From: a virus
Reading direction: 5' to 3' (one strand)
IMG/VR virus record: IMGVR_UViG_3300025151_000055
Location: 1 to 49,222 of that record
DNA length: 49,222 bases
This document shows, one piece after another, positions 2,370-33,071 of this stretch. Position numbers and translations under genes: made by a program. The notes below the pieces were generated by a model. The model was not told the DNA's origin. It searched no databases and saw nothing but the letters and a program-made list of their open reading frames with translations. Positions within the stretch are counted from its first letter, which is position 1, and every line of letters begins with the position of its first letter.

Positions 2370-3281
2370 ATGTACAAGAACAATGGTTCCTATTATACAA
2401 GCGTACAGCTTAATGGAATAAGACTACAGCGTAGTTTACATACCAAGAACAAAAAAACTGCAAAGGTTAGAGAGCCAAAGGTTCGTAACCTATTATATAA
2501 CCAAATACTAACAGGCAAAATTGACTCTAGGAAAAACAACCCTGGCTTAAAAGCTATGGTTGAGTTGTTCTTGAGAAAAAAAAGATTAGATAAAGTATCT
2601 CCTAATACTTACAATACATATAAGTATACCCTAAGACCTTGGGTAAAAAAACAAACTCTCCCTGAAAACAAGAACACTGCAATGAGCTGGATGAGAATGT
2701 TAAATGCATTTTACAATTGGGCTAATAAAGAATTTAAGGATACTGACTTTGAATTATATACTGACATCGGTCAAGCTATTAGGTCAAGAGTATTTACGGG
2801 GGGAGAAAAGGGGGGAATCTTAGGGGGATTAGTTGATTGTGGTGTTGTTGTTGAAGTTGGGAGTTTGTATGATTTTCAAGAGTTTGTTAGGTTGGCTTAT
2901 TATACAGGCTGCAGACGTGCAGAGTTAGCAGGACTTTCTTTTAAAGATATTTACAAAGATAAGATGTTAGTTAGAGGGAAAACAGGTGAGAGGTGGGTTA
3001 AGCTGAATGCTCAAGCTAGAGAAATACTTGATAATCGTTTAGACAAATTGTGGGATTATAATTTAGATTGGATATCTAAAACATTTAGCAGATGTATGTT
3101 TGCTATGGGAATTGAGGACGCAATATTCCACGATCTTAGAAGAACGTTTGGATATGACCTAATACGACAAGGAATGCCAATATACCAAGTCAGTAAGTTG
3201 TTAGGTCACAGGAGCGTAGTGACCACTGAAAGACACTACGCTCCGCTCTTAGCTACCGAAGTAGATGACTTTATATTATGA
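2370..3281 (+). CDS. int: Tyrosine recombinase / integrase
   Basis: Site-specific recombinase of 303 residues, expected to integrate and excise the phage at the adjacent tRNA-Leu-like attP. The N-terminal 30 residues (GSYYTSVQLNGIRLQRSLHT) resemble the small arm-binding domain, followed by a core-binding helical region. Catalytic residues are all visible: R182 (TGCRRAEL), K204, H254 and R257 (HDLRRTF), H280 (LLGHRS) and nucleophile Y290 (ERHYAP). The start follows a purine-rich GAATGAGG stretch. An odd feature is a Gly/Val-rich linker near residues 143-164, encoded by three G-tracts. Its 3' end overlaps by six bases the end of a convergent small gene on the other strand. Confidence 0.95.
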   Translation: MYKNNGSYYTSVQLNGIRLQRSLHTKNKKTAKVREPKVRNLLYNQILTGKIDSRKNNPGLKAMVELFLRKKRLDKVSPNTYNTYKYTLRPWVKKQTLPENKNTAMSWMRMLNAFYNWANKEFKDTDFELYTDIGQAIRSRVFTGGEKGGILGGLVDCGVVVEVGSLYDFQEFVRLAYYTGCRRAELAGLSFKDIYKDKMLVRGKTGERWVKLNAQAREILDNRLDKLWDYNLDWISKTFSRCMFAMGIEDAIFHDLRRTFGYDLIRQGMPIYQVSKLLGHRSVVTTERHYAPLLATEVDDFIL

Positions 3282-3392
3282 ACGTTTTTTAAATAAGTTT
3301 AATACAGTGTACTTATTACCGTTACCACTTTCCCATATCCAGCTATTTAACATAACTAAACACAGGATAAATACTAATGCTACTATGATCAT
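3276..3392 (-). CDS. Small single-pass membrane peptide (38 aa)
   Basis: ATG at 3392 follows a good ribosome site (GGAG, 5-base spacer). It overlaps the stop of the upstream gene as ATGA, the signature of a translationally coupled last cistron. The first 15 residues (MIIVALVFILCLVML) form one membrane helix, followed by a short basic tail ending KKRS. Function unknown. It is the last gene of the leftward operon and runs tail-to-tail into the integrase gene. Confidence 0.6.
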   Translation of the reverse strand: MIIVALVFILCLVMLNSWIWESGNGNKYTVLNLFKKRS

Positions 3393-3595
3393 CTGTACTC
3401 CTTAGTATATATGTTACCCCTGATAAGATGTATATCTCCAGGCATAACTCGTTTGATATTACCTTCTGCAGCACGTTTAGCCCAGCGTGTGACCATTCTT
3501 TCTATATCTTCTTCAAGAAGCTTGTATGCTGTCTCGCTTAACTGAACGTTTGCATTTTTAAATATTTTTTTAAATAGTGATTTTTTAATTATCAT
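3389..3595 (-). CDS. Histone-fold-like small protein (68 aa)
   Basis: The protein can be laid over an archaeal histone along its length. Helix 1 is about residues 5-15 (KSLFKKIFKNA), then a short VQLS strand where archaeal histones have RVS. The long central helix is about 21-45, followed by KRVMPGDIHL where histones have RKTIKAEDIEL. The size fits a single histone fold that would dimerise. The arginine of the usual R-D clamp is not exactly conserved (Ile47 at that position, Lys48 and Arg49 next to it), so the call needs structure prediction. If right, it would bind and compact DNA. It overlaps its upstream neighbour by four bases. The alternative is an unrelated three-helix DNA-binding protein. 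Confidence 0.5.
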   Translation of the reverse strand: MIIKKSLFKKIFKNANVQLSETAYKLLEEDIERMVTRWAKRAAEGNIKRVMPGDIHLIRGNIYTKEYR

Positions 3596-3981
3596 ATTGT
3601 TTTCCTATTTGGTGACAATTTATTTAAATACATAAAAAACATTCTTTCTAATTGAAATGGTGTTACTTCTATAGCACTTGATAATTCGTTTATAAGTTGT
3701 GACCATTCGAGTGCTAATGTTTCTTTATGTTCTTCATATAGGTGTTCATCTATATGTTCTTGTTCTGTTGTCATTAATTTTTCCTTTAAATTTTTTAACT
3801 TGATGAGTTCTCCTGCAAGATAGACACTCATGTCTAATGCTTCTTCTAAAGCTTCTTGCAGGAAATCTCTTTTATCATCAACGTAAATTGTTTGTCCATA
3901 TTTTTTAGCACCTAATTCTATTCTTGCTTTTATATAAGCTTCTATTTCATTGTTTATACCTAGTTGCTGCATATTGGACAC
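3592..3981 (-). CDS. MazG-like helical protein (candidate NTP pyrophosphohydrolase)
   Basis: 129 residues, all-helical in appearance. IKARIELGAKKYG followed by RDFLQEALEEALDMSVYLAG resembles phage MazG-type proteins, in which an EExxD-like helix binds Mg2+ and the substrate is a non-canonical or excess NTP. The C-terminal half, with clusters of Glu and His, is not recognised. The start lies inside the end of the preceding gene (22-base overlap). A second ATG three codons in is also possible. Confidence 0.45.
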   Translation of the reverse strand: MSNMQQLGINNEIEAYIKARIELGAKKYGQTIYVDDKRDFLQEALEEALDMSVYLAGELIKLKNLKEKLMTTEQEHIDEHLYEEHKETLALEWSQLINELSSAIEVTPFQLERMFFMYLNKLSPNRKTI

Positions 3982-4918: not shown

Positions 4919-5160
4919 TAATCACAAACCCCTGCTTCGCATTTATCAGGAGCATTGTAAGTTTCTGGACTTCCTATACTATTAGTTTCTTCATAGGATA
5001 TTGGAGGCTTACCTGGTTCTACCATGTTTGCTTTATATACTGCTAACATTAATGAACCAACATGAGATAGTTCTTTTCCACCTACTTTTTCTAATAATTT
5101 TGCAATCTGAAGATATACATCTATTGTAAAACAAGGTTTTAAATGAGTTATATTTTTCAT
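4918..5160 (-). CDS. Hypothetical protein (80 aa)
   Basis: No family recognised. The N-terminal two-thirds (YLQIAKLLEKVGGKELSHVGSL) looks helical. The C terminus is low in structure, with two Cys (KCEAGVCD). It overlaps its upstream neighbour by four bases (ATGA) and its downstream neighbour by one, so it is co-translated with the Gp157-like and nuclease genes. Confidence 0.65.
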   Translation of the reverse strand: MKNITHLKPCFTIDVYLQIAKLLEKVGGKELSHVGSLMLAVYKANMVEPGKPPISYEETNSIGSPETYNAPDKCEAGVCD

Positions 5161-5777
5161 GATATTTTAAGCCTCCTTTCTCTTTTGATGCTTGCGTACT
5201 CTACACCATCTGAGTTTATTTCACTATATTCTATAGATCCGTTTAAGTTGTTCATCATGTGTTTTCTAAGTTTTGTTTTATCAATAGATTTTGTAATCTT
5301 TACAAACTCTTCAGGAACATCATTTACATTACTAACTATTAACTTTCCTGCAGTTTCATAAGTTGTAAATTTTCCAAGGTCTGTTTTTATTGACATACCA
5401 CCTGTTTTAGTAGGTTCTCCTGCATGTTCAACAATATCAGCAATTAACTCTTTTACTCTCTCTTTAGCATTTTGAATTTGAGTTTCTTTTGCTTGTAAAT
5501 TATTTTTATACTGGGCAAGAACATCTTTTTCTGCTTTTATACTAGCTTCAGACATATCTAATGCTGTTAATACATGTTTTATATTGTTTGTTTTAGCAAG
5601 CATTTGCTCTTCAAGTAGTTCTTGTTCGTTTTGTAAAGTATTAAATTGGTCACTTGTATCATTATCATCACTAGTATTTGTTAATACTTCAAACTTTTCA
5701 TGTTCTATATCTAAATAGCTATTAACCAAACTCCTTACCGTTGGTAAAGAGTCTGGTTTGTTTTTTATTTCTTTCAT
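5157..5777 (-). CDS. Gp157-like protein
   Basis: I start at the ATG at 5777 (MKEIKNKPDS), which has GGAG six bases upstream and overlaps the previous stop as ATGA; this gives 206 residues. A long coiled coil (about residues 40-120) is followed by the features of the Siphovirus Gp157 family: GGMSIKTDLGKFTTYET, then VPEEFVK, DKTKLRKHM and a terminal RRLKI. Family members often sit beside single-strand annealing genes in phage recombination operons, as here with the Sak4-like gene. Exact function unknown. Confidence 0.65.
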   Translation of the reverse strand: MKEIKNKPDSLPTVRSLVNSYLDIEHEKFEVLTNTSDDNDTSDQFNTLQNEQELLEEQMLAKTNNIKHVLTALDMSEASIKAEKDVLAQYKNNLQAKETQIQNAKERVKELIADIVEHAGEPTKTGGMSIKTDLGKFTTYETAGKLIVSNVNDVPEEFVKITKSIDKTKLRKHMMNNLNGSIEYSEINSDGVEYASIKRERRLKIS

Positions 5778-6454
5778 TTTTTCTCCGTTATAAATGTTAT
5801 TTTTGTACAATCCATAAAAAAATATTCTTTTTCCAAAGAAACTTGTTTATGTGTTACTCTATAAGAACTAATTACTTTTAATGTTTTTACATTAGTTGTA
5901 TCAACTCCTAAATATTTTAAAAACAAATAAGTTAAATTTCTATTTGGGTCATGATTATGTTTAAATCGTATTTCTACTGGATCTATACTATTTTTTGCTT
6001 CATTAAACATTCCTCTGTCGTAATCTTTTTGTAATAGTTGTATTGTATATTTTTTTAATTCAGGCATCAGCTTATCATAAATTTTTAAATACCAATTATT
6101 GTTTGTTGCTTCGCTTATATCTATTTGTAGCTTGCCATTAACCACTGTTAACGCAAAAGGAGAGATTATTTTTTTTACTTTTGAATCTTTAGCTGTAAAA
6201 ATTTCTTCGTTTTCTTTAACAGATATTGTTTCAATTACTTGTTTGTTTGTGCTTCCACATTCTGTGCAAACACATACTCTATACGTAAACCCTTTTTTCT
6301 TTCTTTTTGTTGCTACGACTTTTAATTCCTTACTATTACAAACAAGACAATTACTACTATTAATAGGAGGTATTTCGTTAATTCGTTCTGTGTTTTTAAC
6401 AAGTATATCTATTTTATTACTTAATTGTGTGAGTATAGATTGTATTATAGCCAT
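5774..6454 (-). CDS. Zinc-ribbon protein of unknown function (226 aa)
   Basis: A short helical N terminus is followed by a Cys4 zinc ribbon (CLVCNS ... CTECGS) near residues 36-68. The remainder is alpha/beta with no recognised motif, and includes RFKHNHDPNRNLTYLFLKYLG. GAGG eight bases before the ATG supports the start. It lies between the primase-helicase and the Gp157-like gene, so a replication or recombination accessory role is likely but unproven. Confidence 0.65.
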   Translation of the reverse strand: MAIIQSILTQLSNKIDILVKNTERINEIPPINSSNCLVCNSKELKVVATKRKKKGFTYRVCVCTECGSTNKQVIETISVKENEEIFTAKDSKVKKIISPFALTVVNGKLQIDISEATNNNWYLKIYDKLMPELKKYTIQLLQKDYDRGMFNEAKNSIDPVEIRFKHNHDPNRNLTYLFLKYLGVDTTNVKTLKVISSYRVTHKQVSLEKEYFFMDCTKITFITEKK

Positions 6455-6472: not shown

Positions 6473-8317
6473 TTAATATTGTAACCTGGCTGGTTCGTTA
6501 ATTACTTGTGTAAAATTGAATGTATTAAAATCAAATTTTAAAGTTGTGTCAAATGGCTGATTGTCCCTGCTCTTTGTAGAGTAGAAGTGTCTAGTATTAG
6601 ACGTTTCTAAACCGTCTAAACTCCATACATGGTCTGCTTTTTGACCTATTGCTGCACTACCCATGCCGCTGTGTTTATGAAGTTTACCGTTTGTTTGTCG
6701 TACACGATCTGATTCTGATTTTGGTATATGTGATATAGCTATTACAATGAGGTTTTGTCTCTGTGCTATTTCACGTAAAGCTGCTATAGTAGTATCAAGT
6801 TTAGATTTTTGATCTCCACTATAGTGTTCTGTAGTTATACAATCTAATGTATCAATAACTAGAACTTGAGGCATTTCTTCTGACGCAATTCGTTTTAAAC
6901 CCATTACACTTGGTGCATAGTCAGTTACTTTTATATTTTTTAATATGTCTCCATATTTAGAACCATTTTTGTAACTATTATCTATTTCGTAAGAAGATTT
7001 TGATTCTGCAATCTGTCTAAAACGTCTCCATAATAAATCATATGAAAACTCTGGACTGATATACATTGTTTTTAATGGCAATTTACATACGAAGTTTTGA
7101 GTAAAAGCTGTTTTACCCATACCTGTATCTGCTAAAATAATAGCTAGTTCACGTGGACGCACCCAGTATTCATGACCAACATTTACAATTTGATTTAAAT
7201 CAATACCAGGATTATTTTTACGTTCTTCTATCATTTTTGAATACATTTCATGCATTTGATCAGAAGAGTAAACAGGTATTAACGGATCATTGCCACGTTT
7301 TTTGCTAGAATAGTATATACAACTATTTTTGCAATTAGCATCCATTAATTCATCTATACAAGTATATTTTCGGTCATTGTAGTAGATGTAGTTTGTTACT
7401 TCTACTGCTTCTGATTCATCAAAACCATCGCTCATTTTAGACCAGTCTTTAGCCATTGCTATTGCAGCGGAAAAAGGAATGCCATTGCGTCTATAATAAG
7501 ATATGATGCGTAATAAAGTATTACGCCTATTACCAGACGTAGGTCCATTACGATACATTTGTTGTACGCATGGAGCTATCTGATTGGGAGTTATATGATC
7601 ATCAGATAATTCTGTTGATCTTGAAACTACCCTCTTGTTTGGTTTAATATTATTGATAATGGGACTCAATATCCTAGTTTTTATTTCAATTGGTACAACA
7701 TTTACATCTCTTATTAATTGAGTAAGAGAATTTTTAGGTTGTGCTAATTGATGAATTTCTTTTGCTGAATAGTTAAATAACTCATCCATTGTTAGAGGTA
7801 TTTTGATAAGATTTGTTTTTTTATTAATAGTATATGGACTACGTATTAATCTTGTTTTATCATAAATGTTGTCTGCTTCAGGAAAATGTTTTAATAATGT
7901 GTTTTTAACTACTCTTGGTAAGTCTATGCTTGGTTCAAATTTGTAAACATCAGGTATATTAATATGATATCCACTACCACTAAACCAAGGTATTACATGT
8001 GATTCAGGTATATCCATACCATAGCACATGTCATTAACAAACTCTCTAGTTTTACTTAATACTTCTTCATCTGTACTGTCTCCTTTGTCAATATCTAAAG
8101 TAAGTTGATTAATATATGTTTTGCCGTCAAATCCTTTTAAAGTATTATATTTTTCTTTGTGTTTAATAATCTCATTATCAAAACGATAGTAACTAACATA
8201 TAGTTCTTGATTTTGTTCATTATTCGCTAACTCTATATACTTTGTAATTTCAGAAACGGGTATTATTTTTCCTCTGTTGCTCGGGGATCCTAATGCAACT
8301 TCTGTGTATAACATCAT
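6473..8317 (-). CDS. AEP primase fused to RecA-fold helicase
   Basis: Replication primase-helicase. The start at 8317 is preferred because AGGA precedes it and an intergenic hairpin lies upstream; this gives 615 residues. The N-terminal half is an archaeo-eukaryotic-type primase: LTLDIDKG (D75, D77), SGSGYHI (113-119) and TRLIRSP (155-161). The middle has four Cys (C250, C320, C329, C333) arranged like the iron-sulfur domain of the primase large subunit. The C-terminal half is a DnaB/RecA-like motor with Walker A ADTGMGKT (396-403) and Walker B VLVIDTLD (485-492), then AISHIPKSESDR. It would unwind and prime the phage origin. No phage DNA polymerase was found, so it probably hands over to the host replicase. 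Confidence 0.88.
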   Translation of the reverse strand: MMLYTEVALGSPSNRGKIIPVSEITKYIELANNEQNQELYVSYYRFDNEIIKHKEKYNTLKGFDGKTYINQLTLDIDKGDSTDEEVLSKTREFVNDMCYGMDIPESHVIPWFSGSGYHINIPDVYKFEPSIDLPRVVKNTLLKHFPEADNIYDKTRLIRSPYTINKKTNLIKIPLTMDELFNYSAKEIHQLAQPKNSLTQLIRDVNVVPIEIKTRILSPIINNIKPNKRVVSRSTELSDDHITPNQIAPCVQQMYRNGPTSGNRRNTLLRIISYYRRNGIPFSAAIAMAKDWSKMSDGFDESEAVEVTNYIYYNDRKYTCIDELMDANCKNSCIYYSSKKRGNDPLIPVYSSDQMHEMYSKMIEERKNNPGIDLNQIVNVGHEYWVRPRELAIILADTGMGKTAFTQNFVCKLPLKTMYISPEFSYDLLWRRFRQIAESKSSYEIDNSYKNGSKYGDILKNIKVTDYAPSVMGLKRIASEEMPQVLVIDTLDCITTEHYSGDQKSKLDTTIAALREIAQRQNLIVIAISHIPKSESDRVRQTNGKLHKHSGMGSAAIGQKADHVWSLDGLETSNTRHFYSTKSRDNQPFDTTLKFDFNTFNFTQVINEPARLQY

Positions 8318-8332
8318 AATTATTCCTATATA

Positions 8333-8387
8333 AATAAAGGGGTACTTAGGGTTGAATATGACTAAGTAGTCAATGTACCCCTTTATT
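8333..8387 (-). promoter_or_regulatory. Intergenic hairpin before primase-helicase
   Basis: AATAAAGGGGTAC (8333-8345) pairs perfectly with GTACCCCTTTATT (8375-8387), 13 base pairs with a 29-base loop that can itself pair (ACTTAG with CTAAGT). In the leftward transcript it lies just upstream of the primase-helicase ribosome site. There is no long U-run, so attenuation, RNA processing or translational control fit better than a simple terminator. Confidence 0.65.
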
Positions 8388-8399
8388 AGCGGGAGCCAA

Positions 8400-9035
8400 T
8401 TATCCCATGAACTTTGTTGAATTATCAAAGCTCAAGTTTCCTTGGGGTAAGTCATCACTCTGCATCCATGCTTCTTTAGTAGAACCATTACTTACTTGAT
8501 TAGGTAAAGAATCACCTGGATCATAATTGTTTGTCCAGCCACCTTTATCTATTCTAGCTCTATCTTTCAAGAAGTCTTTTTTAATAACTTCTTTAGGAGC
8601 ATTAGTTGGATAGAATCTATTCCAAGTTGCAAATTTACCGTCTTTCTTTTTGTAATTAATGAAAGAGACTTCTTTGCCTAAGAGACTATTCAGGATATCA
8701 GGAGTCAACCTATTGTTTACTAAGTTGCCAGTAATACCTGCAGCTTGAAATAGTTTCTGTATTTTAAATGCACCACCCCAGTCAACTACTTGACCAGTGT
8801 GGTCTTTTCTAAAATTACCACTTACAGTGACAGTTTTTGGGTACTGTAAACCTTCAATTGCAATTTCTAATTCACATGCAATATCAAAGGTTACATCTCC
8901 ACGACCAAAATTGACTGTTTTGTCTGTTGTATCAGTTGCACTTTTAATTGTGCCTTTGTTATACCAAACATTGTCGCCTAGATTGTTCTCACTGCCTGAA
9001 TCACTTCCGTTACTTGTAAAGGATAAATCAGCCAT
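8400..9035 (-). CDS. Putative ssDNA-binding protein (DUF669/SSB-like), Sak4 partner
   Basis: 211 residues. The start overlaps the end of the Sak4-like gene by eight bases, so the two are coupled. The N terminus is Ser/Gly/Asn-rich. The middle is beta-rich (VTFDIACELEIAI, KTVTVSGNF), followed by FKIQKLFQAAGITG and LLGKEVSFINYKKKDGK, which resembles phage DUF669-type proteins. The C-terminal 50 residues look disordered and acidic, as in many SSBs. Phage Sak4 recombinases commonly act with an SSB, so an ssDNA-binding role is a reasonable inference, not a proven one. Confidence 0.5.
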   Translation of the reverse strand: MADLSFTSNGSDSGSENNLGDNVWYNKGTIKSATDTTDKTVNFGRGDVTFDIACELEIAIEGLQYPKTVTVSGNFRKDHTGQVVDWGGAFKIQKLFQAAGITGNLVNNRLTPDILNSLLGKEVSFINYKKKDGKFATWNRFYPTNAPKEVIKKDFLKDRARIDKGGWTNNYDPGDSLPNQVSNGSTKEAWMQSDDLPQGNLSFDNSTKFMG

Positions 9036-9936
9036 TTAAGACCTCCATAGTTTGTTGTTTATTATTTGTTGCTCCGTTAGTAGAAGGTACTTTTGGAGCT
9101 TCTTTTTTATTTGATTTAACTTTATCATCAGAAGTTGCTGCTTCCATGATTGTATTGTAGTCAAAATCAAATACTTTATTATGTAGATTAGGAATACGTG
9201 AACCAATAGTACGCTCATCATACGCTTCAAATGATAGTATTGGTTTTTGTGTTTCTTTATCTACAGTTGAGTAACCAATCGCATCTGATATAGCTACTAA
9301 CTTTTTGCCTAGACCAGCAGGTAAGGCAGGAGAGAGTTGTACTTTATTGTCAGTTATCTGTGTTTCTTTACTATGACTAACAAGAACTAAACATTTGCCT
9401 GTTTTTTTTACATAATTTTGAAACTCCATAATAATATCTAATACCATGTCTCTAGCTTTACTCCAACCTGCACCGAAAGCTGCATCTCCTATCTCATCAA
9501 TTTTTAGTTCTGCTTTTACTTGTGCTTCAGCCCATTCATTTAGTTTATCTACTGTATCTATAACAATAGTATCAAATCCTAAACCTTGCTCACTATGCAT
9601 AGCTTGGATGATTTCTCCTATACTATATACAGTTATTGGATTACCTACTTCGGGACCATTTCTATAGACATAACCACGTTGGTCTGGTGGAATAACTTCT
9701 ATCTTATCTCCGTTTTGTCTTTTGGGTGGATAAATAGATGTAACAGGCACTACATTTGCGTCTTCTAAGAAATCTGTACCTAAGTCAGTATCTAGTACTA
9801 ATGTGCCTTCTGAGCCTATTTTAGACCACTTAGAAAGCTGTGTAGTTTTACCTGTTTTTGGTTGTCCTATGACATACCATGTAAGACCAGACATCATTGA
9901 TTTGAGGTCTAGTTTTTGTTTGATTATATTAATCAT
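9028..9936 (-). CDS. Sak4-like RecA-fold ATPase (phage recombinase)
   Basis: 302 residues. The Walker A motif is GQPKTGKTTQ near residues 25-34. Walker B is in FDTIVIDTVDKLNEW, and a sensor-like strand CLVLVSHSKE follows. This is the pattern of AAA_24/Sak4 phage proteins, compact RecA relatives that catalyse single-strand annealing. The C terminus is low-complexity and basic. GGGAG precedes the start. It lies between a structured intergenic RNA and its SSB-like partner. Confidence 0.8.
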   Translation of the reverse strand: MINIIKQKLDLKSMMSGLTWYVIGQPKTGKTTQLSKWSKIGSEGTLVLDTDLGTDFLEDANVVPVTSIYPPKRQNGDKIEVIPPDQRGYVYRNGPEVGNPITVYSIGEIIQAMHSEQGLGFDTIVIDTVDKLNEWAEAQVKAELKIDEIGDAAFGAGWSKARDMVLDIIMEFQNYVKKTGKCLVLVSHSKETQITDNKVQLSPALPAGLGKKLVAISDAIGYSTVDKETQKPILSFEAYDERTIGSRIPNLHNKVFDFDYNTIMEAATSDDKVKSNKKEAPKVPSTNGATNNKQQTMEVLNG

Positions 9937-10063: not shown

Positions 10064-10963
10064 TTATTGGGTTAAGTTATAATTAGTGTCGCATTTGACC
10101 ATCATTGATGGGAAATTGAACACTATATTGGTGTTGGATGGACTACTTGGATCTACTAGTTTACGTATTTGGTTATTAATAAATGAACCAGCCATACTAG
10201 CACAGTAATTTGTGCTTCTTGCATTACAAGGTTCACTGTCTCCGTCCTCATCATTGTACCATGTTTCTAAATATTCTAATTCAAATTGATGTAAGAGTCT
10301 TTGCATAAATTCTCTTAATCTACCATTACCTCTGTTAAACATATTATATGGAGATAATGTAAATCCATCATTGTCTCTTTTTAAACCTTCTTCAACTTGT
10401 TTTACTAATTTTAAAAGTTCTTTAGTCTGTTCATCGTTCATTATTTGCCATTGATACATTTGAAATGTTTCACTACCCATACGTGCATCAAGAAAATATG
10501 TATCAGATGAATAATAAACTCCTGCATTTATAAATTTATGTATAAAGTTTAACGCTATTTCTTTTCTAGCGTGCATACTGTCTACACCACAAATAACAAA
10601 AGTCTTTTGATTTCTATAACTATCCCATCTGCTATTTCCATATCCGTGATAATAAAAATTAGAACTCCAATAACAATTATCATATTTTGACCTTTTTATT
10701 GTTATTTCAGCTAAAGGATTTATATCTAACATTTGTTTGCGTAACATTTTTACTTTGCTGTTACCAATATGTGTAAGATCGTAATGCTGTACACCAATGT
10801 TTACTGCATCAACAACATCTGGGTCCCATAACATAAATTTAGTTGCACCAGCACGAACTAAGTTCATAGCAGTATAACTACCTATTGCACCACAACCAAT
10901 TATTTCAAAATAATGGTCCTGTAGACGGTATATGTTCTGAAATCGAGTTGTAATCGAGCTCAT
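10064..10963 (-). CDS. E1-like ubiquitin-activating enzyme (ThiF family)
   Basis: Predicted to adenylate the C-terminal Gly of the modifier encoded at 13849-14229 and carry it as a thioester. 299 residues. The Rossmann nucleotide loop is GCGAIGSY (23-30). The acidic pair and Asn of ThiF/E1 enzymes are in DPDVVDAVN (47-55), the Lys is in GNSKV (70), Asp128 is in CGVDS and Arg161 in DARMG. The likely catalytic Cys is C246 in EPCNARST. Although it overlaps the JAB gene by 59 bases, the start at 10963 is supported by a perfect AAGGAG eight bases upstream. It is the last gene of the conjugation cassette. Confidence 0.85.
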   Translation of the reverse strand: MSSITTRFQNIYRLQDHYFEIIGCGAIGSYTAMNLVRAGATKFMLWDPDVVDAVNIGVQHYDLTHIGNSKVKMLRKQMLDINPLAEITIKRSKYDNCYWSSNFYYHGYGNSRWDSYRNQKTFVICGVDSMHARKEIALNFIHKFINAGVYYSSDTYFLDARMGSETFQMYQWQIMNDEQTKELLKLVKQVEEGLKRDNDGFTLSPYNMFNRGNGRLREFMQRLLHQFELEYLETWYNDEDGDSEPCNARSTNYCASMAGSFINNQIRKLVDPSSPSNTNIVFNFPSMMVKCDTNYNLTQ

Positions 10964-11996
10964 TCGTTTCTCCTTCCTGGATAATTAAATCATCAATTGT
11001 TAGTATATCACGCATCATTGATGGTTGATGCATTTTTAACATTTGAGAATGTTGATTGTATTCTTCTATACACTTATTTACCTGTTCCAATGCATCTTTT
11101 TCTTCAACATTGCCAGCATGATAATGGTCTATTTGTGATTCTATCACACTTTCTAACATAGTTAAATAGTCTTCAGGTGTTTCAAAACCATCTTTTAATA
11201 GTTTTTTTGTAACTGACTCTATTTTTTTTACAGGTTTATTTTTTAAATCAGCTTGTCTTTGTAGTTTTGCTGCTTCTTCATTCATGTCTTCCATATCATA
11301 ACTTGAAAATGAATTATTAAATAAGTCTTCATCTTCAATCCCATATGGATCTCCGCTTTGCCACAATGGTAGTGATTCGTAATTATACCTACTGTAGTTT
11401 GGTTTTATTGTTTTAGTTTTTTTTACATTTACAAGTTCTTTTACTTCTTTAATTCGTTTGTCTTTTATATCATCATCTTCTCCATTAAGAACTATTTCAA
11501 CTTCGTACTCTTGTATACTAGTAATACCAAGTTTATTTGTTATTGGTTCTGCATACATAGCTTCATATTCTGCTTTATTATTAACTACAATAGCAAAAAT
11601 AGGTCCTTTTTCTGCAAACTCTTTTATAGTTGCTTTATCTGTAGTTGACCAAAATGCTTTCATAGTATGATGAGAATGCCACCAACAGTAAACTAACTTT
11701 CCTTGTTTTATAATGTCTAATTCATCTTCTTGGTCAAATTCTTTATATATTTTAGACATATAATCTGCAATTGCTTGCTTATCTAATGTTGTTGTAGCTG
11801 CAGTGCAATCTTGTTTAAGTATAGTAGGAGATTCCATAAGTGGATATTCTTCTTTTTTATAACCTCGTATTGTGTTTTCTAATAAAACTGGAGCATATCC
11901 AGATATTTCTGTACCATGTTCTTCCCATGCAGTTCTTGCATAATAAATCATGTCCCAGAAATTTTTATACCACATTTTTAGTTTAATTTTCTTCAT
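10905..11996 (-). CDS. JAB/JAMM metallopeptidase (deubiquitinase-like)
   Basis: 363 residues. The full zinc-binding JAMM signature is present: E30 (TEISG), H107 and H109 (WWHSHH), S117 and D120 (FWSTTD). In conjugation cassettes this enzyme removes or matures the modifier. Here the modifier already ends in Gly-Gly, so deconjugation is the more likely role. The C-terminal two-thirds (from about residue 175) is acidic and helical with no recognised fold, and could be a substrate or partner docking region. It overlaps the E2-like gene by 14 bases and the E1 gene by 59, which points to coordinated translation. Confidence 0.85.
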   Translation of the reverse strand: MKKIKLKMWYKNFWDMIYYARTAWEEHGTEISGYAPVLLENTIRGYKKEEYPLMESPTILKQDCTAATTTLDKQAIADYMSKIYKEFDQEDELDIIKQGKLVYCWWHSHHTMKAFWSTTDKATIKEFAEKGPIFAIVVNNKAEYEAMYAEPITNKLGITSIQEYEVEIVLNGEDDDIKDKRIKEVKELVNVKKTKTIKPNYSRYNYESLPLWQSGDPYGIEDEDLFNNSFSSYDMEDMNEEAAKLQRQADLKNKPVKKIESVTKKLLKDGFETPEDYLTMLESVIESQIDHYHAGNVEEKDALEQVNKCIEEYNQHSQMLKMHQPSMMRDILTIDDLIIQEGETNELDYNSISEHIPSTGPLF

Positions 11997-13356
11997 ATTC
12001 TATTCCTATATGTTCATATATTATTGGATTTATTTCAGTCCAAGGTATTTTATATCTATTGTAAATACCCATTATTTCTTCTTCAAAAGGTTGTAATGAT
12101 CTGTCAATTACATGTTGAGGTCCATTGTTGTGAATTGATGTGAGAAGTCCTTCTGCATTAAAATCAATATCAAAACTAAATGAATGATCTGTATGACACT
12201 TTTTAGCCATTATTTTTAATAGATTTATAAATATTGTTTTATTTTTTCCATCTAACTCTGTTTTGTCTGCTAGACCAGTTCCAAGTCTTGATTTACGACA
12301 TGTTGTATTCATAACACATGAAATACACATTGCTCTGTATTTATGGTCTTGTTGTTTATGATGTCTATATTTAAATTGATCTGGTGTTGGCACTACGCAT
12401 CTGTCTTCTATCAACATGTTTTCAGGAGTGTTTTCTGCGTAACCTCTTACACCATATCTTTCTACTAAACTACCTGGTTGTCTATGAGGATGTGTTGAAC
12501 CTGCAGTATATGTTGTAGACCATCCTGCAGTAAATGATACATATTTAATTAGATCTCCTTCTTTTATCATATCATTAAATTCTACAGTACGATCTCCAAG
12601 ACAACCTGCTGATGATTCTCCTCTACGGTCAGGGGTAAACATGCATGGTCCACTAAATTGAAATGCTTCCCTTAATACATTTTCAGTAAGTAAAGCTTTT
12701 AGTAATTCTGGATATTTTTTATCGTATATAATATTTAAATCAATATCTTTTATAGGAATTACTATTTCTTGAGTAATTTGATGTGCATTTTGATCATACC
12801 TATCTCCATTCGCTAAAAGTATTTGATACGGTTTATTTTTACTTAGGTCTTTAGGTATATAAGTAATATCTGCTTTATATCTAATTGTTATATAGAGTTT
12901 GTATTGATTTTTTGTATCAAGAACTGTGCTTCCTTCAAATGAAGAGTTTTCTCTGCAGCTTAACTTTACATCTAATACTTTAGGTATTTGTTTTAAGTCT
13001 TCAACATATTTTTGTAAATAATCAGTTATTTCTTCTAAAATAGGTTGTCCGTGTTTTTGCATTTCATATTTTTGTACATTATTTTCTATCCATATCATTG
13101 ACCTTACTTGATTACTATTCATTACATCTTTTACTGTTGATAACAATCCTGAACTACCTTTTTTAGGGTCTGCTTTTAAAGTCTTTACAATATTATAATA
13201 GTTCTGTTCTTTGCGATTAGAGTCTACGAACTGCTTTACTGAGTTAAATCCCATTGTGCGTAATACTGCAGTTACTTTTTTATCATATTTAAACCATGCT
13301 TTACTGAAAAGGTTAATTATTTGATTATGATAATTAGTTCTATCTATTTGACTCAT
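11983..13356 (-). CDS. E2-like ubiquitin-conjugating protein
   Basis: 457 residues. The central block (about 150-285) has E2-fold features: a beta-rich region (YKLYITIRYKADITYIP), then GPCMFTPDRRGESSAGCLGD with candidate catalytic C252 in the CLG motif typical of prokaryotic E2s, and a following helix up to FTAGWSTTY. The HPN tripeptide before the Cys is degenerate (Gly-Pro); an HPH sits 37 residues after it. A helical N-terminal domain (1-120) and a Cys/His-rich C-terminal part (CISCVMNTTC) are extra. The start has GAGG upstream. Its place between modifier and JAB/E1 genes makes the E2 call stronger than the motif alone. Confidence 0.65.
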   Translation of the reverse strand: MSQIDRTNYHNQIINLFSKAWFKYDKKVTAVLRTMGFNSVKQFVDSNRKEQNYYNIVKTLKADPKKGSSGLLSTVKDVMNSNQVRSMIWIENNVQKYEMQKHGQPILEEITDYLQKYVEDLKQIPKVLDVKLSCRENSSFEGSTVLDTKNQYKLYITIRYKADITYIPKDLSKNKPYQILLANGDRYDQNAHQITQEIVIPIKDIDLNIIYDKKYPELLKALLTENVLREAFQFSGPCMFTPDRRGESSAGCLGDRTVEFNDMIKEGDLIKYVSFTAGWSTTYTAGSTHPHRQPGSLVERYGVRGYAENTPENMLIEDRCVVPTPDQFKYRHHKQQDHKYRAMCISCVMNTTCRKSRLGTGLADKTELDGKNKTIFINLLKIMAKKCHTDHSFSFDIDFNAEGLLTSIHNNGPQHVIDRSLQPFEEEIMGIYNRYKIPWTEINPIIYEHIGIEYEEN

Positions 13357-13522
13357 ATTCTTTCCTCGCTTTTTCTGCTATTTTATAAAGTCTTTCTGAC
13401 TCTTTTTTACTTTTTCCTGGTCTTTTACGAGTTAGTTCCCATTTCTGGTCCCATGTAAGAGCATCATATTTAGCTTGACGTTCTTCTGCTTCTTGACGTT
13501 TTTGTTCTTTTGATTTAGCCAT
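13340..13522 (-). CDS. Small charged helical protein (60 aa)
   Basis: The start at 13522 (MAKSKEQKRQEAEE) has GGGAGG eight bases upstream, so I prefer it over the ATG ten codons earlier. The sequence is almost entirely Lys/Arg/Glu-rich helix with WDQKWELTRKRPGKSKK in the middle. It is coupled to the E2-like gene (17-base overlap) and starts inside the end of the membrane-peptide gene. It could be a linker or adaptor of the conjugation system; function unknown. Confidence 0.6.
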   Translation of the reverse strand: MAKSKEQKRQEAEERQAKYDALTWDQKWELTRKRPGKSKKESERLYKIAEKARKEYESNR

Positions 13523-13664
13523 CTGTTTTACCTCCCGTAATCCAGAATACAAACATTATTAATGTTATTGATGAGAATATTATCATGAACATACCTGCTC
13601 CTAAAAAGAATAGGTTCAGGATCCATTCTGATAAATCGATTACTATATTGTCTAGTATTATCAT
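13515..13664 (-). CDS. Small membrane protein (49 aa)
   Basis: ATG at 13664 follows AAGGAAATGAAATA. The peptide has an amphipathic start (IVIDLSEWILNL) and one long hydrophobic span (FFLGAGMFMIIFSSITLIMFVFW), then ITGGKTDG. Its end overlaps the next start. It lies between the ubiquitin-like modifier and E2 genes, so it may place part of the pathway at the membrane. This is inference from position. Confidence 0.6.
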   Translation of the reverse strand: MIILDNIVIDLSEWILNLFFLGAGMFMIIFSSITLIMFVFWITGGKTDG

Positions 13665-13688
13665 TATTTCATTTCCTTTCTTGTTAAT

Positions 13689-13737
13689 GTAAGGCAGCCA
13701 CGTTGGGATGCGGGTCCAATATGTGTGACTGCCTTAC
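13689..13737 (-). promoter_or_regulatory. Long RNA stem-loop upstream of membrane-peptide/E2 cistrons
   Basis: The arms are 13689-13701 and 13725-13737. In the leftward RNA, GUAAGGCAGUCAC pairs with GUGGCUGCCUUAC over 13 positions, with one U-G wobble. The opposite strand would have a C-A mismatch there, which suggests that the leftward RNA is the functional form. It lies 25 bases upstream of the next start codon. Confidence 0.6.
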
Positions 13738-13749
13738 TTGTAAGTTTAA

Positions 13750-13838
13750 TTGAGGAGCCTCCTACTATCTGCAATGTGGTGAGTACCCCATTCTTATAAG
13801 ACTCGTTACAAAGCGTCATATTTCGGTCAGCTCCTCAA
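13750..13838 (-). promoter_or_regulatory. Second structured segment after the modifier gene
   Basis: TTGAGGAGC (13750-13758) is closed by GCTCCTCAA (13830-13838). Inside are AATG...CATT and GAC...GTC pairings, and a competing local hairpin AGGAG/CTCCT that shares the closing arm. The mutually exclusive pairings resemble an attenuator or switch. With the stem at 13689-13737 it fills the 184-base gap after the ubiquitin-like gene. Confidence 0.5.
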
Positions 13839-13848
13839 TATATTTTAA

Positions 13849-14229
13849 TTAACCGCCAGTTTTATTTCTGGCGATAGCGTGATACACTTCATCTGTATGA
13901 ATAGGAGAGTCCAAGTCACTTACAAAGTTTCCATCTCCTGTTTGTACTATTGACTGACTTGGATTGATATTTCTTTCAATCAAGAACTCTCTAATAGTAT
14001 TTGCAGTAGTAGTATATGTATCATAAGAAGCACCATCTAAAAGAGCCATAACTTGTTTTTCTTCAAGCTCAACTGGTTCTTCATTACTGTCAACTTCATT
14101 TTGCAATACATTAACTGCATGATCTACTTCAGATGCTGATGTTTCTTCCTCTACTGTATCACTATTTGGAACTGGATTTAGTTCTTCTTCTAACTCTACA
14201 CTATTATTTTCTGTGTTATATTCGCTCAT
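13849..14229 (-). CDS. Ubiquitin-like modifier with C-terminal Gly-Gly
   Basis: 126 residues. The first 57 are acidic and look disordered. Residues 58-126 fit a beta-grasp fold of the ThiS/MoaD/ubiquitin type: a strand KQVMALLDG, helix TIREFLIERNI, strand SIVQTGDGNFV, then DLDSPIHTDEVYHAIA, ending RNKTGG at the stop codon. The exposed terminal Gly-Gly is the substrate form for E1 adenylation, so no processing is needed. AAGGAAATAAATA precedes the ATG. It follows a strong terminator, so it probably has its own promoter and heads the transcript carrying E2, JAB and E1. Confidence 0.78.
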   Translation of the reverse strand: MSEYNTENNSVELEEELNPVPNSDTVEEETSASEVDHAVNVLQNEVDSNEEPVELEEKQVMALLDGASYDTYTTTANTIREFLIERNINPSQSIVQTGDGNFVSDLDSPIHTDEVYHAIARNKTGG

Positions 14230-14554: not shown

Positions 14555-14872
14555 TTATTGTTTATTAATGCAACATCTCTTGTATTTTTTTCCTGAACCA
14601 CAGGGACAAGACGAGTTTCTTGGTATCTTGTTACTTCTGATAGGATTATTTCTTAGCCACCTATAATATTCTTTATATCCGCCTAGGTGTCTAATAAATG
14701 GTCCTACTGATTTGAATCCTTTAGGAAATCGTCTTGCATCTTTAACTTTAACCTGTTGCATTATTGGTTTTCTTTGGTTGGTAGTTATGCCAAAACCAAC
14801 GTATTTGGTTGATTGACATCTTTCTGATTTGAGCTTTGGTTTTATCTGTGTACTTAAATATCCATTGCTCAA
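14555..14872 (-). CDS. SEC-C motif protein (105 aa)
   Basis: The C terminus is SSCPCGSGKKYKRCC, the SEC-C zinc-binding signature (CxC...CC) found at the end of SecA and in many phage and bacterial proteins. The N-terminal 80 residues are basic, with FIRHLGGYKEYYRWLRNNP, and not recognised. No clear ribosome site was seen at the ATG at 14872. SEC-C modules often mediate protein contacts; the role here is unknown. Confidence 0.7.
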   Translation of the reverse strand: MSNGYLSTQIKPKLKSERCQSTKYVGFGITTNQRKPIMQQVKVKDARRFPKGFKSVGPFIRHLGGYKEYYRWLRNNPIRSNKIPRNSSCPCGSGKKYKRCCINKQ

Positions 14873-27006: not shown

Positions 27007-29616
27007 ATGCTTGGATTAGGCAGCAGTCTAGCTAAAGGTGGTGCATCCCTTTTAACCTTTGTTAAGGACAACCTTAAACTATACCTCGACTTCAAATCTA
27101 ATAAGTCAAACACACTAAAGTTTCCATCAGAAGGTTCAACTTCGTTTAATGGAAGTTCTGATAAAATTACATTTACAAGGCAAGTATTTAGTGGTGCATT
27201 TACTATTTCTTGGTGGTTTAATGGAGATACACAAACTTTTTATCAAAGAATGTTTAATGATAGTTCAGCAAATAATAATATTTTAACAAAAGATGCTAAT
27301 GGATTAGTTGCTATCAGAATTAATGGAACTTATAGAGCAAATATATCTGGTGTTCCTCATAATGAATGGTCTTATCTTACATTTACAAGAGATGGAAGTG
27401 GTAATATAAAATCATATTTAAATGGAGTTGCAAGTGGTACTTCATCAACTACAGATGAATTTGCTTTGGATTTTATTGGAGAGCAAGTTGTTTGTAGTAT
27501 GTGTAATGTAGCTATGTGGACACGAGAACTATCCTTTGAAGAAGTCCAATCCGTTATGAACAAGTCTTACAGTCAGTTAGGTTCTGTAGAAAAAACAAGT
27601 TTAGTTATGTGGCAGTCTCTTGATAGTCAAAGTAATGGATTAGTACAACCTGCAACAGGAGAAACATTAGGTAGTTCTCCACTTTCTAATACAGATTTTA
27701 GTTCAAATAGTGATTGGGCATTAGCAACAGGGGTTACAATAAATACAACATTAAATAAATTAGAATTTGATACAACAGGAACTACCTATACAAATCAAGC
27801 GGGTTTAGAAAATAGTAAACTATATAAAATAACTCTTGATGCAGTTATTACTTCTGGGCAAGTAAGGCTTTTAATAGGAAGTAGTGGAATGACAAGTTTT
27901 ATTACTAATGGAAGTAACACTTTTTATTCGTTTCGTAATGGTAACTCAAGTTTTTATTTTCAAGGATTAAGTGGCTTTATAGGTAATATAAGCAATTTAT
28001 CAGTTTTAGAGGTTTCATCACTCACAGGACTTGTTACAGGAACAACAACTACCACATCAGTATATGGTGGCAATGCACCAATCTTACCTCGTGCAGTTGA
28101 TGTAGCTAAAGAGGGACAAGCAGATGCGATTGGAAATGGTAGTGCTTTGTTCAACGGAAGTACAGACCATGTGGTATTAGGTGGCAGTTCTCCAGATAGT
28201 GCATTTTCTATTAGTGCTTGGGTTTTTGACACTCACGCAAGTGGTTCAGATTTTAGTGCTATATATGCCTCAAATCAAACTGCAATATGGTTTGGAGTAA
28301 AAAATAATTCAAGTGGTTTTGTAAGGTTACATATTAATGGAGATGGTAATTACGCTGATACTCCATCTGGTTCTTTTTCAAGTCCATCAAATGAATGGAT
28401 ACATTTAGCGTGTACTTGGGATGGTACTAATGCAAAGATATATATTAATGGAGTGTCACAAGTATTATCTGTTACAGGTACTTTAGCAAATCCAACTGCG
28501 AATGCTAATCCAGAAATAGGAATCAATGATAATAACCATAGTTATAATCAATGGACAGGAAATATTAGCCAAGTAGGAATTTGGCGAGGTGCGTTAACCC
28601 AAGCACAAATCCAATCTGTTTTTGAATCTACTTCCTATGCTAAGATACCAGCAAATGTAAAAAGTACATTAAGTGAAAATTATGTTACTAATAGCACATT
28701 TGATTCTGATATAAGTGGTTGGAGTCAAAATCAATCTGATTCAGATAGAACAATAGCACACGCTACAGTTGATGGTAGAACTTGTATTGATATAAATGAT
28801 GCAAATACATTAGGTCGTTTTAATGCACAGTTTGACCTCGGTACTAATGCTGTAGATGGAGAACTTTATAAAGTAAGTTATTTTGCAAGAAAAGCTCAAA
28901 CAGGCAGTACAAGTAAAGATTTTATTGTTGGTATTGGTTTTTCAAATGTAGGAGCAGATGCAGGTAATGTTGATAAAACAGTTGCAGAATATGATACATG
29001 GGAGTTTCAAGAAGTATATATTATATGTGGTTCTGCAAATAATCACTTACAATTTTTACCAACTGCTTATGATAATTCACATATAGGTAGATTATATCTT
29101 GATGAAGTAAAAGTGCAAAAAGTTACTAACGACCTCGTAGCGTACTATCCTCTTGATGAAAGTAATTCTGGAAGCGTAGGAATTGCAACTGATTCTGTAG
29201 GTGGGGAAACACTTGGTAGTGAATTAGTTACTTCCCTTATTAATAATAACGATTCTTGGGAAACTTATTCTCATAGTGGCACTACAGTTTTATCTGCTAC
29301 AAACGCTGTTGGAACTGGTGCTGAAATATATTCAAATGTAATGAATTTAAATGCAGGGGATTTAATTAAAGTAGTATTTACAATTACTCAAAATTCTGGA
29401 ACTACAAGATTACAAATGAGTGACCAATATGGTAATTATACAACTGGTGATTTAAATGAAGTAATAAGTTCAAGTGGTACATACACTTTTTATACTGTTA
29501 TTAGTCATGCCAACATGGATGTTTTAAAGTTAAAAGTAGAAACAAATCCAAATGATATTGCTAATGTAACATTTTCAGCAAAAAAAGTAACCTCAAATAC
29601 AGGAGTGCTTAAATAA
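27007..29616 (+). CDS. LamG-repeat adhesin / tail fibre-like protein 1
   Basis: 869 residues. After a short hydrophobic N terminus, two concanavalin-like LamG domains are visible: about 42-182 (STSFNGSSDKITF...NEWSYLTFTRD...AMWTRELSFEEVQ) and about 376-548 (FNGSTDHVVLGG...EWIHLACTWDGTNAKIYING...IGIWRGALTQAQIQ). A carbohydrate-binding-module-like region (VTNSTFDSDISGWSQ) lies near 560-700, and another beta-sandwich follows. Likely a virion surface protein that binds host glycans. It abuts a second protein of the same type. Confidence 0.8.
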   Translation: MLGLGSSLAKGGASLLTFVKDNLKLYLDFKSNKSNTLKFPSEGSTSFNGSSDKITFTRQVFSGAFTISWWFNGDTQTFYQRMFNDSSANNNILTKDANGLVAIRINGTYRANISGVPHNEWSYLTFTRDGSGNIKSYLNGVASGTSSTTDEFALDFIGEQVVCSMCNVAMWTRELSFEEVQSVMNKSYSQLGSVEKTSLVMWQSLDSQSNGLVQPATGETLGSSPLSNTDFSSNSDWALATGVTINTTLNKLEFDTTGTTYTNQAGLENSKLYKITLDAVITSGQVRLLIGSSGMTSFITNGSNTFYSFRNGNSSFYFQGLSGFIGNISNLSVLEVSSLTGLVTGTTTTTSVYGGNAPILPRAVDVAKEGQADAIGNGSALFNGSTDHVVLGGSSPDSAFSISAWVFDTHASGSDFSAIYASNQTAIWFGVKNNSSGFVRLHINGDGNYADTPSGSFSSPSNEWIHLACTWDGTNAKIYINGVSQVLSVTGTLANPTANANPEIGINDNNHSYNQWTGNISQVGIWRGALTQAQIQSVFESTSYAKIPANVKSTLSENYVTNSTFDSDISGWSQNQSDSDRTIAHATVDGRTCIDINDANTLGRFNAQFDLGTNAVDGELYKVSYFARKAQTGSTSKDFIVGIGFSNVGADAGNVDKTVAEYDTWEFQEVYIICGSANNHLQFLPTAYDNSHIGRLYLDEVKVQKVTNDLVAYYPLDESNSGSVGIATDSVGGETLGSELVTSLINNNDSWETYSHSGTTVLSATNAVGTGAEIYSNVMNLNAGDLIKVVFTITQNSGTTRLQMSDQYGNYTTGDLNEVISSSGTYTFYTVISHANMDVLKLKVETNPNDIANVTFSAKKVTSNTGVLK

Positions 29617-32600: not shown

Positions 32601-33071
32601 CCCACTAATGGACAACCAAGTGACCAAAATTGTATAATCGGAGTAAAAGATGGAACAGGTACAGATTCAAAACTTGCTTTACATTTAAGAGTAGATGGTA
32701 AAATAAGATTGATTATGAATTATGAAGGTACTACAAAACAACCTCAAACAAATTCAGCAGTTTATGCTGATAAAGAAAGCACTTGGAAATTTATTAGCGT
32801 TGTTCAAGATGCAGATAATGAAGATATATTGTTCTATGTAGATAATAGCCTTGTAGCATCAAGCGGTACAGATGTATTAAATGGAGTTGATGTAGGCTCT
32901 ATAGAAATTAACAGAGCATTGTACGTAGGTGCAGAGAATAAAGGCACTACTGACATTGAAAGATATTATAACGGACTGCTTGATGAAGTAAGAATTTACA
33001 ATCGTGCATTATCATTAGCAGAGCATCAAAAAAACTATAAACACCAAAAAGGTAAACACAAAAATGACTAA
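29616..33071 (+). CDS. LamG-repeat adhesin / tail fibre-like protein 2
   Basis: 1151 residues with four LamG-type domains, at about 25-170, 511-690, 705-885 and 961-1135. Each shows the same order: FDGVxD, (A/S)ISFWIKP, WTFLVITRD or WTHIAFVWDG, and ALSESEVQ-like closing helices. Two CBM-like beta-sandwich regions lie between. It begins at the stop of the first LamG gene. The pair probably arose by repeated internal duplication and forms the main receptor-binding surface. Confidence 0.8.
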   Translation: MATTISTDSPKLTANIADHADVYGGRALVFDGVTDALSIERDFAGAFSISFWIKPHDVTDSGVGILGTTTGDSNYIRQFSQNVAIRINSAGATYGTGNVLANDVWTFLVITRDDSNVLKWYVDSEYIGSSATQSGTFQTDHIGRSINAYFNGAMCDVKYYNVALSESEVQSQYLKPESIPNQNSLLAWYPMCEGNPESPQSIVYDHSEKGLSSELASGGSWYIGGVSGVTTSKDGITSTVSYDDTSASDGAPYRPNLNFNTKSGSVYKIVYTPISITGTFNPYFYLGGSGVSAGNLPTFDASSTVTMYFIGSGSQIALNTRSNSSSYTATFTYSLKEVLMGNHATTKFFSTVDEIEDGAFATNTNASTTGAYWTTDDAWSIGSGVATCNFSGSANKSMSQGSGNGSVSAHPLTAGKTYRVTGTVVVTELNGYLSIGSYGSNFTTVLPSDTADGATVNFDEEIVADTGQIQIRTVGSGGANNFTLDNFTAKEVGVSSAGFAIAQEEPVIPQIPLMRYNQKMVFDGYDDKVVLNSTINISSASGQGSVSAVVNISELDTTYRMIIGGTHPNLFAYFGYYSNKFKWLVDGAWNTSSTDIVEGKTYHIVGTWNNTSVKFYVNGVLDWSITDTVVLADINSIGDSTNYEEIQGIVDEVSVWNVELTSAQVQELFNDGVALDATTHSKAPALKAYYRNDGVTTWKNRGYNFASFDGVNDLITRDAINVDYKSVSFWVRPNTTFTTSSTYKPVIFFGSWGYGSAGFGNATSGFTGELITLNDYVGDHKKTAWIPTSGETIPSDSWTHIAFVWDGSKYIIYYNGQPQTVTALDTGHQPLNTNKNIRIATGGTSTTNFFDGDIANVAFWSESLTDAQVLSIYNTGHNGNIASIQSSDLELYYTFNPHALTDADTNTSVQDRSGNDNDSTSVSGAVIDRDGDVQGSPDSITIREGLNSNRDGLGFYFTNPSSNVVRFDGVSEYLDLGVFDKNTWKGSFTISFWMKPTNGQPSDQNCIIGVKDGTGTDSKLALHLRVDGKIRLIMNYEGTTKQPQTNSAVYADKESTWKFISVVQDADNEDILFYVDNSLVASSGTDVLNGVDVGSIEINRALYVGAENKGTTDIERYYNGLLDEVRIYNRALSLAEHQKNYKHQKGKHKND

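Follow-up and report, generated by a model that had tools for sequence, protein, structure and literature searches.

Why would a phage carry what appears to be a complete pathway for ubiquitin-like protein conjugation among its replication genes, when conjugation of this kind in bacteria is known mainly as anti-phage defence? The question is raised by a 49-kb IMG/VR virus record, IMGVR_UViG_3300025151_000055, which was analysed over positions 1 to 49,222 (referred to here as the window). Five open reading frames (ORFs) running in the same direction on the minus strand encode a ubiquitin-like modifier (Ubl), a protein of 70 amino acids (aa), an E2-like protein (457 aa), a JAMM protease and an E1. 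An original prediction made from the sequence alone had described these as a conjugation cassette of overlapping genes in a phage early operon, possibly a viral version of the bacterial Bil system. We consider it probable that the four main genes form a self-contained and reversible phage ubiquitin-like conjugation pathway, the targets of which are most likely proteins of DNA replication and recombination.

Profile comparisons make the identities of the predicted E1 and JAMM enzymes secure. The E1-like ThiF-family adenylating enzyme (299 aa; 10064-10963, minus strand) contains a single ThiF domain spanning residues 13 to 275 (Pfam, 3.1e-18), with the nucleotides 10226-10228 encoding its predicted catalytic cysteine, Cys246. 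The GxGxxG motif at residues 23 to 28 (G23xG25xxG28) and Cys246 are present as the original prediction had described them, and the enzyme also has D47, K70 and D128. An alignment of 105 family members shows no variation at G23, G25, K70, D128 and R133; C246 occurs in 104 of them, and the remaining sequence has a gap at that column. The family profile matches UBA6, UBA5, ThiF, MoeB, Cap2 and BubCD in the PDB. The JAMM/MPN+ metalloprotease (363 aa; 10905-11996, minus strand), predicted to process and deconjugate the Ubl, carries all of the expected residues (E30, H107, H109, S117 and D120). As a single sequence it falls just under the Pfam Prok-JAB cut-off (7.9e-5; 23.0 bits against a cut-off of 25), and its family profile matches archaeal CsRpn11 (9.1e-8), Rpn11 and CSN5 in the PDB, with the deubiquitinases CsRpn11 and Rpn11 as the best solved relatives.

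Neither the Ubl nor the E2-like protein of the window has a match of its own in Pfam, PHROGs, NCBIfam or PADLOC, and both were approached through their relatives; on that basis we regard the predicted Ubl as settled and the predicted E2 as likely. The Ubl (126 aa; 13849-14229, minus strand) has an acidic, poorly conserved N-terminal extension followed by a beta-grasp domain at about residues 57 to 126, and, as originally described, it ends in ARNKTGG directly before the stop codon, leaving a free Gly125-Gly126 terminus (13852-13857). A profile built from other phage Ubls ranks it first among the 132 ORFs of the window (E = 0.0017), and profile-profile comparison with the phage Ubl family gives a P value of 7.6e-6 (probability 84%). 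When the family alignment including the window protein is compared with the PDB, SAMP2 (5.3e-5), PF1061, MoaD, ThiS and TtuB are among the solved relatives, and 9 of the 36 family members match Pfam ThiS. Stand-alone phage Ubls are about 66 to 138 aa long, show a beta-grasp-like pattern and terminate in GG or SG, either exactly or with a short tail. Well over half have such a tail, which fits a JAMM that matures Ubl precursors.

Several phage Ubls depart from this stand-alone form. In L106 the Ubl (8677-9093, minus strand) is a tandem of two beta-grasp domains with the junction SNVKGG|S and the ending VEGGQ; it resembles the double Ubl of BilA type and could be cleavable by the JAMM. The Ubls of crAss-like phages and of Flavobacterium phage FpV4 carry a long C-terminal domain after KSG or KSGG: in FpV4 gp53 (L142, 3613-4482), which matches the Ubl profile at 1.4e-7, an extension of roughly 190 residues follows KSGG, and the domain after KSG in crAss gp79-like proteins is similar to it. 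In L015 (cr106_1, 2699-3902), the crAss Ubl gene stops early at KKIKSGKF and a gene for an HNH endonuclease then occupies the position of the C-terminal half, as if the Ubl gene had been split by a homing element.

The E2-like protein, a predicted Ubl-conjugating protein (11983-13356, minus strand) with a C-terminal CxxCx5C motif, contains the CLG sequence noted in the original prediction, with the predicted catalytic Cys252 (codon 12601-12603) in the motif AGCLGDR. Proteins at this position in related loci (the E2 slot) form three large classes, in each of which one cysteine of a CLG-like motif is invariant (39/39, 27/27 and 18/18 members). The window protein is linked to class c0, the 39-member phage family, at a probability of 96.4% (P = 1.3e-9) with C252 aligned to the invariant cysteine, and in an alignment of 30 proteins that includes it C252 (30/30) and P290 are the sole invariant columns. 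Class c0 is in turn linked to class c2 by profile comparison (probability 89.8%), and class c2 has the motif HPHxSxGxPCLG, of which H, P, H, C and G are invariant. Four human E2s, represented by approximate sequences, gave an in-register match with c2 only, and this was weak (P = 0.0017). It agrees with a scan of the whole PDB with the c2 domain profile, which is independent of those four sequences and in which ubiquitin E2s took four of the five top places (UBE2W, LOC55284 and Ubc4 twice; E values of 0.17 to 1.6).

The cassette is not peculiar to this phage. Three marine IMG/VR contigs (L001, L002 and L007) keep all four genes and their key residues, the proteins being 40-62% identical to their window counterparts; all three retain the GG tail and CLGDR unchanged, and C246 is kept in the two whose E1 extends that far. 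A search of DNA with the motif HSHxxMxxF[FW]SxTD, which is directed at the JAMM only and ignores its neighbours, found at least 120 phage stretches. E30, which lies outside this search pattern, is conserved in 101 of 105 JAMM sequences. Neighbours were counted among the matches listed for the motif, at loci with enough sequence on the side concerned: the JAMM has an E1 directly downstream in 96 of 97, and upstream of it lie a protein of the E2 slot in 70 of 76 and a Ubl-family protein in 53 of 55. Since the four genes are conserved in the three marine contigs and their order recurs in the phage contigs found by the motif, the cassette is beyond chance, and it is widespread.

The E1 and the E2-slot protein also travel together. 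When the E2 class labels are placed on a tree of 74 E1s, they require 3 changes, which is the minimum, against 34.5 for shuffled labels. The window E1 falls among the c0 E1s with a support of 100/100, which independently supports the profile match between the window E2 and class c0. There is thus support at the level of sequence for the components and their key residues, as well as for their conserved co-occurrence and their co-inheritance. Cultured carriers, gut crAss-like phages among them, include crAss001 (gp79-gp76), DAC15, other Steigviridae and FpV4 (gp53-gp50), whose E1 carries the public annotation thiamine biosynthesis and whose JAMM is annotated as a metalloprotease or a hypothetical protein. 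Profiles of the crAss families recover the window E1 (99.7%) and JAMM (97.4%), and the gene order is the same. The JAMM motif was also found in 14 bacterial or archaeal genome contigs, several of which also encode a Ubl, a c2-type E2 and an E1. We note six bacterial contigs with JAMM, E1 and c2-type E2 (L143, L145, L146, L147, L153 and L155), several with a Ubl as well, from Myxococcales, proteobacteria, KSB1, Calditrichaeota and others, some of them 100 kb to 1.7 Mb long.

The arrangement of the genes in the window bears out part of the claim that they overlap: the 70-aa ORF and the E2 gene share 17 nucleotides (nt), the E2 and JAMM genes 14 nt and the JAMM and E1 genes 59 nt, but the Ubl gene overlaps none of them and lies 296 nt upstream, with the small ORF in between. 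This small charged ORF (13340-13552, minus strand), the probable start of which is an internal MAKSK, has no family match in Pfam or PHROGs and keeps its position in L001, L002 and L007. Directly downstream of the E1 is a Sak4-like single-stranded DNA (ssDNA) annealing protein or recombinase (9028-9936, minus strand; PHROG 124, 1.2e-28; AAA_24, 1.9e-25), followed on the same strand by a 211-aa protein, possibly ssDNA binding (8400-9035), and a DnaB-like primase-helicase (6473-8428; DnaB_C, 8.2e-8, with PHROG helicase/primase matches). Scans of the family libraries gave nothing for the 211-aa protein, which has a homologue at the equivalent position in about 10 loci besides L001. These three genes are genomic context and lie outside the enzyme set, and the setting recurs: among the listed matches Sak4 is directly downstream of the E1 in 44 of the 60 non-crAss loci with room for it and is followed by the helicase, a homologue of which lies downstream in 53 loci; the cassettes of crAss001 and FpV4 are surrounded by primase, UDG, Sak4 and exonuclease genes. 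Because the cassette of the window is placed among replication genes, the early-operon label seems plausible.

Beyond the cassette, the window encodes a P22-like portal, an SU10-type capsid protein and a tyrosine integrase, and it looks like a podovirus-type phage. The integrase (2370-3281, plus strand) and a similar-looking ORF in L001 (11453-12361, minus strand) suggest a temperate phage. A Mu Gam-like DNA end-protection protein (5157-5810, minus strand; PHROG 253, 4.4e-11), likely an anti-RecBCD gene, is encoded downstream of the helicase, and a small protein with a C-terminal SEC-C zinc motif (14555-14872, minus strand; Pfam, 1e-8), which has a homologue in L002, is encoded upstream of the Ubl. 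A virion protein of 1151 aa (29616-33071, plus strand) contains four lectin-like Laminin_G_3 stretches (5.4e-66) and probably functions in receptor binding.

From these features we infer an E2 fold, catalysis, covalent conjugation, targets and a purpose for the cassette. We hypothesize that the E1 would use ATP to adenylate the Ubl at its C-terminal glycine and then load the Ubl on Cys246 as a thioester, from which it would be handed to Cys252 of the E2-like protein and joined to lysines of the target. The JAMM would strip the tag and, in the many relatives with residues past GG or SG, would also trim the Ubl precursor. We saw no E3 gene, and the choice of targets therefore probably lies with the extra domains of the long E2-like protein itself. 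Ubiquitin and SUMO control PCNA and Rad51, and on this analogy the targets would most likely be replication or recombination proteins of the phage or the host, namely Sak4, the 211-aa protein, the primase-helicase or host counterparts. The placement in a replication and recombination module, with Sak4 beside the E1, favors regulation of phage DNA metabolism over an anti-defence role.

A number of observations weigh against this interpretation. Replication genes cluster in many phages anyway, which makes the context weak evidence for the targets. The assignment of the window E2, though likely, is indirect: it lacks a Pfam E2 match, its lineage has lost the HP[YH] histidine and motif of its relatives, the c0 domain profile alone found nothing in the PDB, and the PDB matches of c2 are suggestive, their E values being such that they count only by the identity of the proteins matched. 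An AlphaFold model of the window E2 (30 sequences) was too poor to use, with a predicted local distance difference test (pLDDT) score of 50.0, and Foldseek found no E2 with it. The model of the window Ubl (4 sequences; pLDDT 49.7) was likewise too poor to use, and its Foldseek list, mostly of ubiquitin-like folds at probabilities below 0.1, was not taken as evidence. Direct sequence comparison of the E2 and Ubl of the window with those of crAss-like phages detected no similarity, and tblastn with the window E2 gave no match in cultured phages.

The alternative that survives best, though we regard it as unlikely, is counter-defence, in which immune proteins of the host (for example components of CBASS, Bil or Bub) are tagged or sequestered by the phage, or host tags are removed by its JAMM. 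Ubl systems known from bacteria act against phages (PMC10097602, PMC11354881, PMC13373217). Between the window and L001 the cassette proteins share 41-62% identity, against 84-88% for Sak4, the 211-aa protein and the helicase, and dN/dS (the ratio of nonsynonymous to synonymous divergence) is 0.37-0.52 for the cassette and 0.12-0.19 for its replication neighbours. Fast divergence is often seen in host-facing genes. However, dS is also higher in the cassette in this comparison (0.85-1.46 against 0.53-0.70), so that recombinational replacement of the cassette explains the divergence as well as arms-race evolution does. The fixed place in the replication module and the order conserved across very different phages also argue against counter-defence, and a protease or a decoy would need less than a whole set that includes a dedicated Ubl, E2 and E1. 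The earlier suggestion that the cassette blocks a host Bil or CBASS system by competition is possible but found no positive evidence here; the neighbourhood points to replication and recombination.

Two further explanations appear to us improbable, and about equally so. In the first, the Ubl is a sulfur carrier whose thiocarboxylate, as in ThiF-ThiS, MoeB-MoaD and TtuB, thiolates a nucleobase, tRNA or metabolite, the E2-slot protein being the sulfur user. The ThiF-family E1 and its public annotation as thiamine biosynthesis are consistent with this, as are ThiS, MoaD and TtuB among the solved relatives of the Ubl family, and some Ubls act both as sulfur carrier and as protein modifier. The near-invariant cysteine at an E1-like place in the phage E1s speaks against it, as do the JAMM with deubiquitinase-type relatives beside the E1 in nearly every locus and the E2-slot motifs, which are E2-like and not those of a thiolase; no rhodanese, cysteine desulfurase or ThiI homologue was seen beside the cassette. 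Thiamine biosynthesis itself was rejected, as neither the scanned window proteins nor those neighbours that are annotated showed another thi gene. In the second explanation, E1, JAMM and Ubl conjugate directly in the manner of the archaeal SAMPs, which are not known to use an E2, with the CLG protein serving as a substrate or adaptor. The direct fold tests of the window protein (Pfam, AlphaFold, Foldseek and c0 profile against the PDB) gave no E2, which counts in its favor, but the invariant cysteine in all three E2-slot classes, the c2 motif HPx...CLG in register with classical E2s and the co-inheritance of the E2-slot protein with the E1 count against it. Modification of virion or packaging proteins of the phage itself, the former raised in the original prediction and recalling the pairing of Ubl and JAB domains in phage tail modules such as the lambda-like TAPI (Ubl) and TAPK (JAB) (PMC1779556), is possible but very doubtful and found no positive evidence, given that the cassette is embedded in replication genes on the strand opposite the virion genes, in a neighbourhood that points to replication and recombination, that lambda-type modules are without E1 or E2 and that the window JAMM is Rpn11-like and free-standing.

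Reversible conjugation acting on phage DNA metabolism is the interpretation we prefer. The cassette is real and widespread, and it appears to be a form of Ubl conjugation distinct from Bil, CBASS and PRTRC by the features tested. Whether several tailed-phage lineages, crAss-like phages among them, run such a pathway within their replication-recombination machinery, as a viral counterpart of replication control by ubiquitin and SUMO and a previously unclassified Ubl-E2-JAMM-E1 family, seems to us evenly balanced. If true, a full pathway that phages carry, that is common in virus databases and that is tied to replication genes would reverse the picture of bacterial Ubl conjugation as defence and would provide a second, viral setting for the reversible tagging of DNA machinery. 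The cultured carriers crAss001, DAC15 and FpV4 make direct testing possible, and the names 'thiamine biosynthesis protein' and 'hypothetical protein' in public annotation could be put right. Archaeal and eukaryotic Rpn11 and UBA enzymes are among the nearest solved relatives of the JAMM and E1, a finding relevant to the origin of the eukaryotic system. Literature searches on phage Ubl cassettes, crAss with ubiquitin and Sak4 with ubiquitin, with subscription papers and preprints outside their coverage, returned no description of such a cassette.

Among described systems, the one invoked by the original prediction is Bil (BilABCD), which shares with the cassette four kinds of parts in the naming order Ubl, E2, JAB/JAMM protease and E1 (PMC11354881). 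Bil has a two-domain BilA, a BilD E1 composed of an inactive and an active adenylation domain, and a BilB with a CEHH motif formed by Cys138, Glu144, His146 and His151 (Cys, +6, +8 and +13) (PMC11354881). The window Ubl, in contrast, has a single C-terminal beta-grasp domain, its N-terminal half being the acidic extension; its E1 has one adenylation domain; its E2 has V258, F260 and K265 at the E, H and H positions after C252; and the cassette sits in a phage replication context. The single Ubl domain, the single-domain E1 and the missing CEHH motif rule out Bil membership, and what stands of the proposed phage version of Bil is the conjugation and deconjugation cassette in the Bil order. The best matches of the window E1 in the defence library are fused E1-E2 proteins of Cap2-like type (3.2e-16) from type II CBASS (Cap2/Cap3) and 6A-MBL systems, which have a JAB partner, whereas in the window E1 and E2 are separate genes and a dedicated Ubl is encoded. 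Among the flanking ORFs scanned, no CD-NTase/cyclase or metallo-beta-lactamase was found adjacent to the cassette, and type II CBASS is rejected on the lack of an E1-E2 fusion and of a cyclase among these ORFs. Bub operons were compared by the E1 alone, the family profile of which matches Citrobacter BubCD in the PDB at 2.9e-10. The TAPI-TAPK pair of lambda and T1 is likewise phage-encoded and combines a Ubl with a JAB peptidase (PMC1779556), but its Ubl and JAB-NlpC genes lie among tail genes without an E1 or E2, and the E1 and the replication-gene location of the window cassette exclude a tail module of this type.

Apart from Bil, the closest described gene content is that of PRTRC, or operon type 6d, with a stand-alone Ubl ending in glycine, a JAB, an E1 and a separate E2 (PMC1779556). 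The window E1 matches PRTRC_ThiF at 5.3e-5, as do 7 of 12 family E1s (best 4.5e-11), but it scores 22.7 bits against a curated cut-off of 144.75, and NCBIfam scans of the cassette and upstream proteins found no ParB-related protein and no PRTRC B, C, D, E or F protein, which together rule out membership. The E2s of type 6d also differ, lacking the upstream histidine and having a downstream one, whereas the phage c0 and c2 proteins mostly keep HP[YH] upstream. By these tested features the cassette is set apart from Bil, CBASS and PRTRC, and its sequence suggests that it acts like a pathway of ubiquitin-like conjugation.

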